In this document: piece after piece, positions 49,823 through 54,555 of the stretch | How positions within the stretch are numbered: position 1 is the first letter of the stretch | Layout of the letters: each line of letters starts with the position of its first letter | Origin: Aneurinibacillus uraniidurans | GTDB lineage: Bacteria; Bacillota; Bacilli; Aneurinibacillales; Aneurinibacillaceae | Assembly (NCBI RefSeq): GCF_028471905.1 | Contig: NZ_CP116902.1 | Coordinates: 1,214,501-1,278,500, forward strand | DNA: 64,000 nucleotides | Direction of reading: 5' to 3' | The notes under the pieces: generated by a model | The model's input: the letters and a program-made list of their open reading frames with translations, nothing else | What the model was told of the DNA's origin: nothing | Database searches by the model: none | Translations under genes and position numbers: made by a program

Positions 49823-50692
49823 ATGTCTGAAGATAGAAGAGTTGATAATACAACGGCTAAAAAAATTAGAGAGAGTCTACAAGCGGATTGTATAAACTGT
49901 TTTGGCCTATGTTGTACGGCGCTTAATATTGTTGCATCAAGTGACTTTGCAATGAATAAAGAAGCTGGCACACCGTGCTCTAATTTACAGTCTGATTTTC
50001 GCTGTCAAATTCACAGTCAGCTTAGAGAAAAAGGATGTAAGGGATGTACAGTATTTGATTGCTTAGGAGCTGGGCAAATGGTTTCCCAAGTTACGTTTAA
50101 TGGACAAGACTGGCGAGAAAATTCTGAGGTTGCCGAGAAAATGTTTCGTGTATTTCCAATTATGGAGCAGCTGTACGAAATGACTGCGTATATTGCAGAG
50201 GCATTATCCTATAAGGTTTCACGTTCGTTATATGACAAACTGAATGCACAGTTAGAACAATTACAGAGTGTAACGAAGCTTGACGCTGATGCGCTATTAT
50301 CATTAGATATAACCACTTATCGACTGCCTGTAAATGAATTGCTTTTAGAAACAAGTGAGCATATTCGCAATGACGTAATGGTAAAGACTTTCTCCGCTAA
50401 AAATACGCAAAAACGTAACTATAGAGGAATCGATTGGATTGGGAAAAAGCTAACTGGCAAAGATTTAAGAGCAGCTGATTTGAGAGGGGCATGTTTAATT
50501 GCTGCTAATATGCAAAATACGGACGTAAGAGGGGCCGATTTTATTGGCGCTGATTTACGTGATGCTGATTTAAGTGGGGCAAACCTTTCTACGAGTATGT
50601 TTCTAACTCAAATGCAAGTTAACTCAGCTAAAGGTGACAAACAAACAAGATTACCATCATACTTGCAACGACCATCTCATTGGACTGAATAA
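49823..50692 (+). CDS. Cys-cluster plus pentapeptide-repeat protein of unknown function
   Basis: A 289-residue protein in two parts. The N-terminal 85 residues hold nine Cys (23, 26, 30, 31, 52, 61, 72, 75, 80) in a CX2CX3CC...CX2CX4C layout like the YkgJ/UPF0153 metal-cluster type. The middle (about 90-200) is helical. Residues about 208-255 are pentapeptide repeats (ADLRGA, ADFIGA, ADLRDA, ADLSGA, ANLS), which should form a short quadrilateral beta helix. Base composition is visibly more AT-rich than that of neighbours and it follows a gene remnant, so transfer is likely. The function cannot be named. The ATG follows AAGAGGG. Confidence 0.8.
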   Translation: MSEDRRVDNTTAKKIRESLQADCINCFGLCCTALNIVASSDFAMNKEAGTPCSNLQSDFRCQIHSQLREKGCKGCTVFDCLGAGQMVSQVTFNGQDWRENSEVAEKMFRVFPIMEQLYEMTAYIAEALSYKVSRSLYDKLNAQLEQLQSVTKLDADALLSLDITTYRLPVNELLLETSEHIRNDVMVKTFSAKNTQKRNYRGIDWIGKKLTGKDLRAADLRGACLIAANMQNTDVRGADFIGADLRDADLSGANLSTSMFLTQMQVNSAKGDKQTRLPSYLQRPSHWTE

Positions 50693-50840: not shown

Positions 50841-52820
50841 CTAATTCACATGACTTTTCTGCTCCTCCACATACGCCGGAACAATCCGGTAGCGGGACAG
50901 CATGCGATACACTTTCTGTGCCACGTTCGGGAAATAGCGAATATCATGTACATCAATGCCGCCAAGCCAGAATAAGGCTAGCGCATAGGCGGTCAGCGAA
51001 CATGCACCGATAACTGCCGCTTCGAGTCCAAAGAACAGGCGCTCTGGGATCGGGAGATGTGGTTGAACCGTAAACCCAAGCCAGATGATGCCGAGTCCGA
51101 TCACGGACAGAAGAAGCGAGGACAGCAGAAAACCGCGCCAGCGTTCCCCAAGAATCGCCAGCTTTGTATACTGATTAATCGCCCGAATATTGAGCGACAT
51201 AACAGCAATAAAGCAAAGTGATGTTGCCAGGATGATGCCGTAAATGCCGAACAGCGGAGCAAATACATAGTTACCCGCCAGCTTGACAAGCACGCCGATA
51301 ATGACATGGCGCATCGGCAAATCCGTGCGGCCAAGTCCTTGCAGAATGCCGGACGATGTCATCATCATGATCTGGAAAATCGTACCGATACATAAAGACC
51401 CGATAATAAATGCCGCTTTCAAGTAGGTAGCATCCGTATTTTTAAATAGCAGCCCGTTAATCGGATACGCTGCTACTGTCAAATACAGCGCCGCCGGAAC
51501 GCCCGTAATGAGCGCTACCCGCAGTGCCATCGAACTCATGCGCTGCACTTCCGCATGGTCGCGTCGCGAATACGCAGCCGATACGACCGGAATGATCGAT
51601 GAACTAAGCGCAATGGCGAGAATAATCGGCAGTCCAGCAAGCGACTGGGCGCTTCCGCCGAGAATCCCCACTGTATCCACCGCTTCATTGTACGCATGCA
51701 GCTGTTCTGTAAAGAAACGGAGCGGCACACAAGGTACATCCGTACCGGCAGCGAGTTGGAGTGGGCCGCCGAACGTTTTTCCGTTTAGTACAACGGGCTG
51801 GTTCATGACAAGAGTTGCTTTGACCGGACCACGCTCATAAAAGGCTCGCTGGTGGTTTTTATCCCAGACAAGATCGGCGCCCATCGCGACGCTCGCTTCC
51901 TCAAGCGGAATCATCGTCGTGTTGTTCTTGTACAAATACGGCGCGATTGGCAGTGTAATCTCTTTACCACCGATTATGGCATCCGTATGTTTTAACGTCA
52001 CCGATATGCGCTCGTTCTGCGGGGTTAGAAGCCGCAGGGACGTAGACGAATCGATAAAGTATAAAAGCGGTACCGCCATCGCAGAAATCGTGATAGGCAG
52101 GGACAGACGCAGCATCTTGCCATAAATTTGGCGGTATGTGAGTTTTTTATAGTTTTTTTGTTCGGACACTCTTTTCTTCTGATCCGGGCGGTGTTTTTTA
52201 TAGAAATATATCATGACCGCTACCGCTGCGACACTTCCCATCACAGCACCGAATGAAGCACCTGCTACGGCTACATCTTTGTTATATCCATAATGCAGCA
52301 GAATAAGCGGCAGGGCGACAGCCGTTGCCACGCGGAGGATTTGCTCCATCACCTGGGAAAGCCCGGTCGGCTGCATGAATTGCTGACCCTGGAAATATCC
52401 GCGCATAATCGCAATGAGTGGGAAGAGAAGCATCGCCGGGGCAATTGCTTTGATTGCCAGCTCTGCCTGCGGTGCTAAGGCATATTCCGCATAATACGGT
52501 GCGATTACGATCATAAATAGAAACATCACGACACCGGTAACGAGCGCAAAATTTCGCGCCGCCTTATACGTCTGATGTGCTTCATGATACTGGCCAACCG
52601 CCGTATATTCCGAAATCTGCTTGCTCAGTGCGCTCGGAACGCCCAATGTTGCAATGATCAGGAGCATACTGTAGACGTTATAGGAGATCGTGTACAGTGT
52701 CATCCCATCGTTGCCCATAATGTGCTGTAATGGTACGCGCTGTCCAACACCGAGCACACGCGATACAATCGCTGCTACCGTTAGAATGAGTGTTCCTTTC
52801 AAAAATGAGTTTTTTGACAT
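50841..52820 (-). CDS. MurJ/YtgP-type lipid flippase with an inserted extracytoplasmic stalk-like domain
   Basis: A 659-residue MOP superfamily protein. The N-lobe (about 1-210) matches MurJ/YtgP: SRVLGVGQRVP, ATLGVPSALSKQISEY and MRGYFQGQQFMQPTGLSQVMEQILRV are represented. The C-lobe resumes with GGSAQSLAGLPIILAIALSSSIIPVVSAAYSRRD. Between them, after the seventh helix (PLLYFIDSSTSLRLL), about 110 residues (270-382) are inserted. These read as two copper-amine-oxidase-N/stalk half repeats: IPLEEASVAMGADLVWD and VPLRFFTEQL are the hallmark segments. With an inside N-terminus this loop faces outward. The usual length is about 540. It lies 10 bases after rqcH and is probably co-transcribed. It should flip lipid II or a related polyprenyl lipid (inference). 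Confidence 0.85.
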   Translation of the reverse strand: MSKNSFLKGTLILTVAAIVSRVLGVGQRVPLQHIMGNDGMTLYTISYNVYSMLLIIATLGVPSALSKQISEYTAVGQYHEAHQTYKAARNFALVTGVVMFLFMIVIAPYYAEYALAPQAELAIKAIAPAMLLFPLIAIMRGYFQGQQFMQPTGLSQVMEQILRVATAVALPLILLHYGYNKDVAVAGASFGAVMGSVAAVAVMIYFYKKHRPDQKKRVSEQKNYKKLTYRQIYGKMLRLSLPITISAMAVPLLYFIDSSTSLRLLTPQNERISVTLKHTDAIIGGKEITLPIAPYLYKNNTTMIPLEEASVAMGADLVWDKNHQRAFYERGPVKATLVMNQPVVLNGKTFGGPLQLAAGTDVPCVPLRFFTEQLHAYNEAVDTVGILGGSAQSLAGLPIILAIALSSSIIPVVSAAYSRRDHAEVQRMSSMALRVALITGVPAALYLTVAAYPINGLLFKNTDATYLKAAFIIGSLCIGTIFQIMMMTSSGILQGLGRTDLPMRHVIIGVLVKLAGNYVFAPLFGIYGIILATSLCFIAVMSLNIRAINQYTKLAILGERWRGFLLSSLLLSVIGLGIIWLGFTVQPHLPIPERLFFGLEAAVIGACSLTAYALALFWLGGIDVHDIRYFPNVAQKVYRMLSRYRIVPAYVEEQKSHVN

Positions 52821-52830
52821 TGTTTATTCC

Positions 52831-54555
52831 TCAAGACGTTGTAGTTTTCGTACGGGTTAGATCGCGCAGCACAGTATCATCTGGCGTAATGAACAGCGTT
52901 TTTTGCTGTTCATAAATGACAAAGCCCGGCTTTGAGCCTTTTGGTTTTTTGACGTGGCGCACAAGCGTATAGTCAACGGGCACCTGGCTTGATTGCCGTG
53001 CTTTGCTGTGGTACGCCGCAAGCATCGCTGCTTCGGCAAGTGTGGCATCTCCGAACTCGGTGCTGCGAATGACGACATGAGAACCTGGAATATCTTTCGT
53101 ATGCAGCCATGTATCAGTTGGCGCTGCAAGTCGGTTCGTCAAGTACTCGTTTTGCTTGTTGTTTTTGCCAAGGTATATCTCAATGCCCTCACTGGATGTA
53201 TACCGTTCGAGTATCGGATGTTTCGTTTTTGGCTTCCGATTACGACTTGGACGAGCACGGAGATAACCTTCCTCAGTCAACTCGTCACGAATTTCTTCAA
53301 TATCCGCTAATCCTGCACTTTCCACCTGCTGGATGATCATATCCAGATAGCGGACTTCTTCTTCGGCACTTGCGATTTGTTCATCCAGGATTGCCAGACT
53401 GTTTTTAGCCTTTGTGTATTTTTTGAAATACATCTGGGCATTCTCGGACGGTGTCAGTCTTGGGTCAAGTGAAATCGTTAGCTCTGGTGAACCATCCTCA
53501 TAGTAATTCAACACCGTCACGTCTGTTTGCCCGCGTTCCATCTGATAAATGTTGGCGGTAATCAGCTCGCCGTACCGCTGATACACATGCGCATCTTCCG
53601 CCTGACGCTTCGTTTCTTTCAGCTTTTCGATCTTTTTCACATTTTTATCGCGTTCATTGCTTACGAGTCGCAGCAAATCGTGCATGCGCTGTTTGACCGT
53701 ATCGCGCTCAGCTTTGCCATGATAGAAAGCTTCGAGGCAGGTACTCATAGAATCAAACGTTTCTGCCATACCTTGCAGATGGGTAAGCGGGACGGCCGAG
53801 AAGTACTCTTTTGTTTCTGTTCGGACAATCGTTGGCGTGTACAGATGTGCATCTACATCCTTCATGACAGAGCGAAACGCATTCCAAAGTGCGTCTGCGG
53901 TTGGCAACCCTGTGCGGTGCAGGATTTCAGTTGCAACAAGCGGACTCATACCGGCGAAGGAGCTGATAAGCTGTTTGTCCAGCTTTCCCTCATTAAATTT
54001 CATGCGTACAAGAAACTCATGTTCAGATGCTTCAAGAGGATTGAGTTTATCTTGCGGCGGCGGTGGCAAATAGGGCCGACCCGGAAGAACGACCCGGTAA
54101 CGGCTGACGGAAGGTGTGACATGATGCAGTCCATCATGGATGAGCCCTGTTTCCGGGTCCAGGAGGATCAGGTTACTATGCCGCCCCATAATTTCGAGCA
54201 CAATACGTTTGGCGCGATCATCACCTAATTCGTCGCGGCCGCGCACATCGATATGTACAATCCGTTCCATGTCCACCTGACGGATGGACTCAATGACGGC
54301 TCCTTCACAATATTTGCGGAGCAGCATGCAGAACATTGGCGCTTCAAGCGGATTCTGATACGCTGCGGTTGTCAGATGAAGACGGGGAAAACTCAGGCTC
54401 GCCGACAGCAGAAGGCGGACGCTGCCGCTGCGCGTGCGAATTTGCATCACGATGTCTGTATCGGTCGGCTGGTGGATTTTTGCGATCCGCGAGCCAGCCA
54501 GCTTCTCATTCAGCTCGTGTGTCACTGCACGCGTGACAATGCCGTCAAAAGCCAT
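52831..54555 (-). CDS. rqcH: Ribosome quality control factor RqcH (NFACT family, FbpA/YloA)
   Basis: A 574-residue NFACT protein: NFACT-N (about 1-170, starting MAFDGIVTRAVTHELNEKL), a helix-hairpin-helix part, a long coiled coil (about 285-430) and the C-terminal NFACT-R domain (about 450-555) with GSHVVIRSTEFGD. RqcH binds 60S/50S-peptidyl-tRNA complexes and recruits Ala-tRNA to add alanine tails. At the position of the Asp-Arg pair needed for tailing in B. subtilis (97-98) this protein has Glu97-Arg98 in VDMERIV. Fibronectin binding, the older name, is a side property in some species. It is divergent from the winged-helix gene at 54696. Confidence 0.92.
   Translation of the reverse strand: MAFDGIVTRAVTHELNEKLAGSRIAKIHQPTDTDIVMQIRTRSGSVRLLLSASLSFPRLHLTTAAYQNPLEAPMFCMLLRKYCEGAVIESIRQVDMERIVHIDVRGRDELGDDRAKRIVLEIMGRHSNLILLDPETGLIHDGLHHVTPSVSRYRVVLPGRPYLPPPPQDKLNPLEASEHEFLVRMKFNEGKLDKQLISSFAGMSPLVATEILHRTGLPTADALWNAFRSVMKDVDAHLYTPTIVRTETKEYFSAVPLTHLQGMAETFDSMSTCLEAFYHGKAERDTVKQRMHDLLRLVSNERDKNVKKIEKLKETKRQAEDAHVYQRYGELITANIYQMERGQTDVTVLNYYEDGSPELTISLDPRLTPSENAQMYFKKYTKAKNSLAILDEQIASAEEEVRYLDMIIQQVESAGLADIEEIRDELTEEGYLRARPSRNRKPKTKHPILERYTSSEGIEIYLGKNNKQNEYLTNRLAAPTDTWLHTKDIPGSHVVIRSTEFGDATLAEAAMLAAYHSKARQSSQVPVDYTLVRHVKKPKGSKPGFVIYEQQKTLFITPDDTVLRDLTRTKTTTS

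Follow-up and report, generated by a model that had tools for sequence, protein, structure and literature searches.

The flippase gene occupies positions 50841-52820 on the minus strand of the 64,000-nt window (the whole stretch of DNA analysed here), which comes from a 3.85-Mb genome whose closest named relatives are Aneurinibacillus species. It encodes a 659-residue protein, in the reading frame and at the coordinates given by an earlier sequence-only reading of the window, and the product is assigned from Pfam, AlphaFold2 and PDB matches to the MOP superfamily, in the SpoVB/YabM/YtgP-like clade. An additional domain, hereafter the insert, lies between its two lobes. Directly upstream, across a gap of 10 bp, is rqcH (52831-54555, minus strand; NFACT, PF05833, 529 bits), and the two genes are probably co-transcribed. 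The family members with the insert whose flanks were inspected (L009, L016-L021 and L041-L044) also have an rqcH-like frame in this position, and no rqcH-like gene is among the listed flanking frames of the sister-family loci L045-L048. Near the 3′ end of the flippase gene is a convergent gene on the plus strand (49823-50692), whose product is rich in cysteine in its N-terminal part and has pentapeptide repeats (PF00805) towards the C terminus.

The host protein is a MOP-superfamily lipid-linked-glycan flippase, and an undecaprenyl-linked glycan is the cargo expected from its family. Alignment and the AlphaFold2 model divide it into an N-lobe with TM1-TM7 (residues 1-266; 52023-52820, minus strand) and a second part that comprises the native remainder of the TM7-8 loop, the C-lobe and TM13-14 (residues 376-659; 50844-51695, minus strand). 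Polysacc_synt (PF01943) covers residues 7-264 with 97 bits, and MurJ and MatE profiles match the C-lobe from approximately residue 390 (PF03023, 61.4 bits; PF01554, 53.2 bits). The full-length model, built from an alignment of 31 sequences (pLDDT 84.9, pTM 0.82), is a MurJ-like bundle, and the PDB entries that match it best are structures of MurJ (TMt 0.81 for 7wax, the highest, and 0.73 for 6nc6). These share the fold and the TM7-8 outer loop with the host protein, but only about 13% of its residues.

The limits of the insert are set by orthologues that lack it. Proteins of the sister family (531-545 aa) match the flippase from residue 1 to approximately 267 and from approximately 377 onward, with nothing between. 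In the alignment of insert-free orthologues, '...YFIDSSTVIPLL' is followed by the short native loop '...G...A...LGILTGRAQ', and in the sister-family proteins '...SSTVIPLL' runs almost directly into '...GY..A...LGILTGRAQ'. Because members of the Aneurinibacillus family have about 107 additional residues between the LL and the Y..A, we place the insert at residues 269-375 (51696-52016, minus strand). The sequence-only reading had given residues 270-382, correctly positioned in the 659-residue frame at 52013-51675; its start is refined here to approximately 269, but residues 376-382 belong to the native flippase loop in the orthologue alignment.

The insert is a member of the Cu_amine_oxidN1 (stalk) family. 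PF07833 matches residues 283-376 (profile positions 2-95 of 108) with 60.6 bits against a curated gathering score of 24.2 (E = 1.6e-16), and PF07833 run against the entire genome recovered the same site independently (rank 12 of 18 matches, 43.4 bits). In the full-length model the region between TM7, whose helix ends at residue 265, and TM8, which starts at 375, consists of strands and two short helices, forming a beta domain at residues 272-366 (pLDDT mostly 81-91); the insert modelled alone reaches a pLDDT of 89.3, with both half repeats and both of their helices in one chain. The hydropathy of a membrane helix was not found in the insert (maximum 0.75; Kyte-Doolittle, window 19). Foldseek returned E. 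coli amine oxidase in all of its top 18 rows for the insert, but with an E value of only 0.016, and so VIA-align was used as a second look. It superposes the insert on residues 6-82 of the E. coli copper amine oxidase with Z = 8.0 (rmsd 2.7, 73 aligned residues), the next unrelated fold scoring 3.4. A PDB sequence search with a TM7-insert-TM8 profile gave nothing relevant. The stalk-domain identity and the position right after the seventh helix, both read earlier from the letters, are thus borne out, and the predicted structure of the 659-residue protein forms a beta domain, rather than membrane helices, at residues 272-366. That this is a flippase with a PF07833 domain in its TM7-TM8 loop is, in our judgement, close to certain. 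The identical architecture in 11 genomes rules out a sequencing, assembly or frame artefact and a gene fusion.

The domain is not a complete copy of the Pfam model. Its last beta hairpin, with the terminal V.W, is missing in all 10 aligned family members, and the last helix (VPLRFFTEQL) runs directly into the native entry to TM8. Of the two half repeats in the sequence-only reading, both are therefore present, each with its helix, but the pair lacks the final hairpin. The second-half VPLRFFTEQL is retained, the three most distant members showing slight changes. In the first half (residues 304-312; 51885-51910), the VPLR...E motif has become VPLE, and the later E is lost in most members. The missing hairpin and this change suggest that any ligand site of the secreted versions of the domain may be lost in the insert. 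The corresponding E. coli domain (D1) has the same fold but forms the N terminus of a secreted enzyme, whereas the insert lies inside a membrane transporter and is without the last hairpin.

The closest experimentally studied PF07833 domain that we found in Bacillales is that of Paenibacillus lautus PaSOD, a protein with relatives reported in Aneurinibacillus. It is a homodimerisation domain, and the protein melts at 50.5 °C when full-length and at 38.0 °C without it (PMC10432803). The insert could accordingly be an oligomerisation module, pairing with the like domain of a second flippase copy or of a secreted stalk-domain protein; PaSOD makes this the proposal with the best experimental precedent, and without its last hairpin the insert may have an unpaired edge. 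The two domains differ, though, in that PaSOD has one half repeat, and it is the dimer that looks like the two-repeat fold (8imd aligns to the insert with a Z of only 2.4 in VIA-align), while the insert holds both half repeats and both helices in one chain. It may therefore be self-satisfied, the need to dimerise being gone, and we regard oligomerisation as fairly unlikely.

The insert probably faces the outside of the cell, as the sequence-only reading had expected of this loop. It follows TM7 of a MurJ-fold protein, and the adjoining loops carry the positive charges typical of the inside: K/R make up 12 of the 34 residues of TM6-7 and 4 of the 21 of TM8-9, against 0-1 in each of the other predicted outer loops. 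Its location also bears on the transport cycle. In Thermosipho MurJ, straightening of TM7 is the fulcrum of the switch from inward- to outward-facing states (PMC6465408), which makes it plausible that a domain beginning a few residues past TM7 restrains or biases the movement of this helix and of the outer gate, thereby adjusting the cycle. The strongly conserved last helix of the insert (VP.RFFT.QL), which leads into the native TM8 entry, fits such a gate modulator. However, nearness to TM7 would hold for anything inserted in the TM7-8 loop, and orthologues without the insert are kept, so the domain is dispensable for the cycle; modulation of the gate seems to us unlikely.

The earlier description of the protein as MurJ-type holds for its fold, but not in the sense of its being the MurJ of the cell. 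It scores 54.6 bits on the MurJ equivalog TIGR01695 (cut-off 235.55) and 241.7 bits on the SpoVB equivalog TIGR02900 (cut-off 372.3). These low scores are not due to the insert, since insert-free orthologues fall below the SpoVB cut-off as well (238-242 bits) and two of them, L045 and L048, below that for MurJ too. The same genome encodes a canonical MurJ elsewhere (C1:704558-706156, that is, L174:1402-3000; TIGR01695, 294.6 bits), and the insert-bearing protein is therefore not supported as the vegetative MurJ. That gene sits between glycosyltransferase-like and sugar-epimerase-like frames, and it has relatives in 14 of the 15 genomes of the order. The canonical SpoVB (L011, 505.5 bits) is beside a secD-like gene, and a YabM-like protein (L010) is encoded between spoVT-like and mazG-like genes; gene names in these neighbourhoods are our reading of the flanking translations.

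SpoVB, YabM and Bacillus YtgP-like flippases are the closest sequence relatives of the insert-bearing protein, yet it appears to fall in a clade apart from SpoVB, from YabM and from the putative YtgP proteins, and none of the SpoVB/YabM/YtgP-like paralogues and orthologues examined outside the family has the insert. Nor does it come out, by a small margin, as a reciprocal-best match of the Bacillus-type protein taken as YtgP/MurJ: the putative YtgP proteins (L158-L160), so called only by elimination and from an rsuA-like neighbour, score slightly better against the YabM-like L010 than against it, and the tree support bearing on a common clade is 0.689. Amj is absent from the source genome by a search whose B. 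subtilis control was positive, and it is patchy in the order (4 of 11 family genomes, 0 of 4 in the sister family). The set of candidate flippases is thus mixed, with relatives of the canonical MurJ in most of the order and no Amj in 7 of the 11 family genomes. Loss of murJ is synthetically lethal with loss of amj in B. subtilis, an effect that UppS overproduction relieves (PMC12096821), and the SpoVB/YabM/YtgP-like homologues of this species have been tied to wall or cortex metabolism (PMC4790310, PMC12096821).

The insert is present in all 11 sampled genomes of the Aneurinibacillus family, a group of soil bacteria (seven of the genus and four of other genera), and absent from the four genomes of the sister family within the order and from 40 of 40 further close orthologues, judged by alignments or frame lengths. 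Searches for further cases covered samples of 399 genomes from the class, queried with the insert and the N-lobe, and of 398 genomes from the phylum, queried with the TM7-insert-TM8 profile and the N-lobe. A close orthologue occurs in 55 of the 399 class genomes: the 11 of the family have frames of 658-668 aa, and the other 44 have frames of 535-603 aa. Among the class and phylum matches listed or fetched, no flippase inspected outside the family has the insert, and the 48 insert-like matches fetched that did not belong to the family's flippases were stalk domains in other kinds of protein (0 of 48 flippases). Frames of 643, 616 and 608 aa, the longest for any flippase in the list from the phylum N-lobe search, owe their length to an upstream reading-frame extension or a masked run. 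Stalk domains within flippases, whose spread the sequence-only reading had proposed to survey, were thus found in one family only, and independent insertions elsewhere are set aside among the matches listed or fetched. In a tree built on the flippase body, the proteins with the insert form a monophyletic group (support 0.951), which clusters with the sister-family proteins that lack it (0.999). The simplest reading, within the sampled genomes, is a single gain in the ancestor of the Aneurinibacillus family.

Since that putative gain the insert has been kept under purifying selection while evolving faster than the flippase body, as judged from sequence comparison within the family. Two close pairs without dS saturation give dN/dS values of about 0.05 (dS 0.34) and 0.03 (dS 0.71) for the insert. 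Among distant members, where synonymous sites are saturated, its amino-acid-changing rate is approximately 2-4 times that of the lobes. It is the fastest-changing part of the protein, with a mean identity of 0.53 against 0.80 and 0.74 for the two lobes. This pattern bears on a near-neutral origin, in which the exposed loop could accommodate a folded domain, now maintained only because misfolding has to be avoided. Near-neutrality is compatible with the fast change, with the restriction to one family and with the incompleteness relative to the Pfam model, but less so with retention in 11 of 11 genomes: at the greatest divergence in the family, identity is only about 58-67% for the lobes and 32% for the insert, and still the insert, under purifying selection, is never lost. 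We consider this account rather improbable.

The most likely role, which we propose tentatively, is that of an outer-face docking domain. It is suggested by the company that the domain keeps: PF07833 is often found in wall hydrolases, according to a surfaceome study (PMC4137172), and in the same genome it is joined to two N-acetylmuramoyl-L-alanine amidases (Amidase_3+AMIN) and to one 'Cell Wall Hydrolase' protein (Hydrolase_2), as expected from the link to secreted wall proteins that had been drawn from the window's sequence. These proteins and PaSOD are soluble and carry the domain at the N-terminal end, outside the cell, whereas the insert is within a membrane transporter. An ancestor of the Aneurinibacillus family would have gained, once, a near-complete PF07833 domain of the secreted-wall-protein kind in a MOP flippase. 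Projecting from the outer face at the TM7-TM8 loop, the domain would hold the flippase near a wall polymer or near a wall-building or wall-cleaving partner, so that cargo may be delivered at its site of use; for the transport cycle we assume, from the fold, the ordinary MurJ-like rocking mechanism. It is possible, but a more doubtful step, that docking would couple the outward transport of a lipid-linked precursor of the wall to one particular partner in wall building or remodelling. Against docking, the insert is the fastest-changing part of the protein, as would be expected of a weakly constrained loop domain, and the missing hairpin and altered first-half motif may have cost it any ligand site.

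The finding is a new domain combination on a known kind of transporter, which is real, well bounded, undescribed in the literature searched and found in one bacterial family only. No MurJ with such an inserted domain is reported in that literature, and the view that no flippase with a stalk-domain insert had been described agrees with our finding none in open-licence publications. The actinobacterial MviN, a MurJ-family protein, has added pseudokinase and extracellular domains; these follow the flippase core and are unrelated to PF07833, whereas the insert is in the TM7-8 loop. Flippases of the MurJ-like kind usually have very little mass outside the membrane, and the handover of lipid-linked precursors from flippases to polymerases there is largely an open question. 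The insert could be a physical tether between the flippase and the wall, or between the flippase and a partner protein, and if it docks or dimerises it would be, to our knowledge, the first such module in the TM7-8 loop. If it does nothing, the finding still has a use, in showing that this loop can accommodate a domain of 107 residues. A compact and removable outer domain on a natural flippase offers a handle for partner pull-down with the isolated domain and a clean deletion test.
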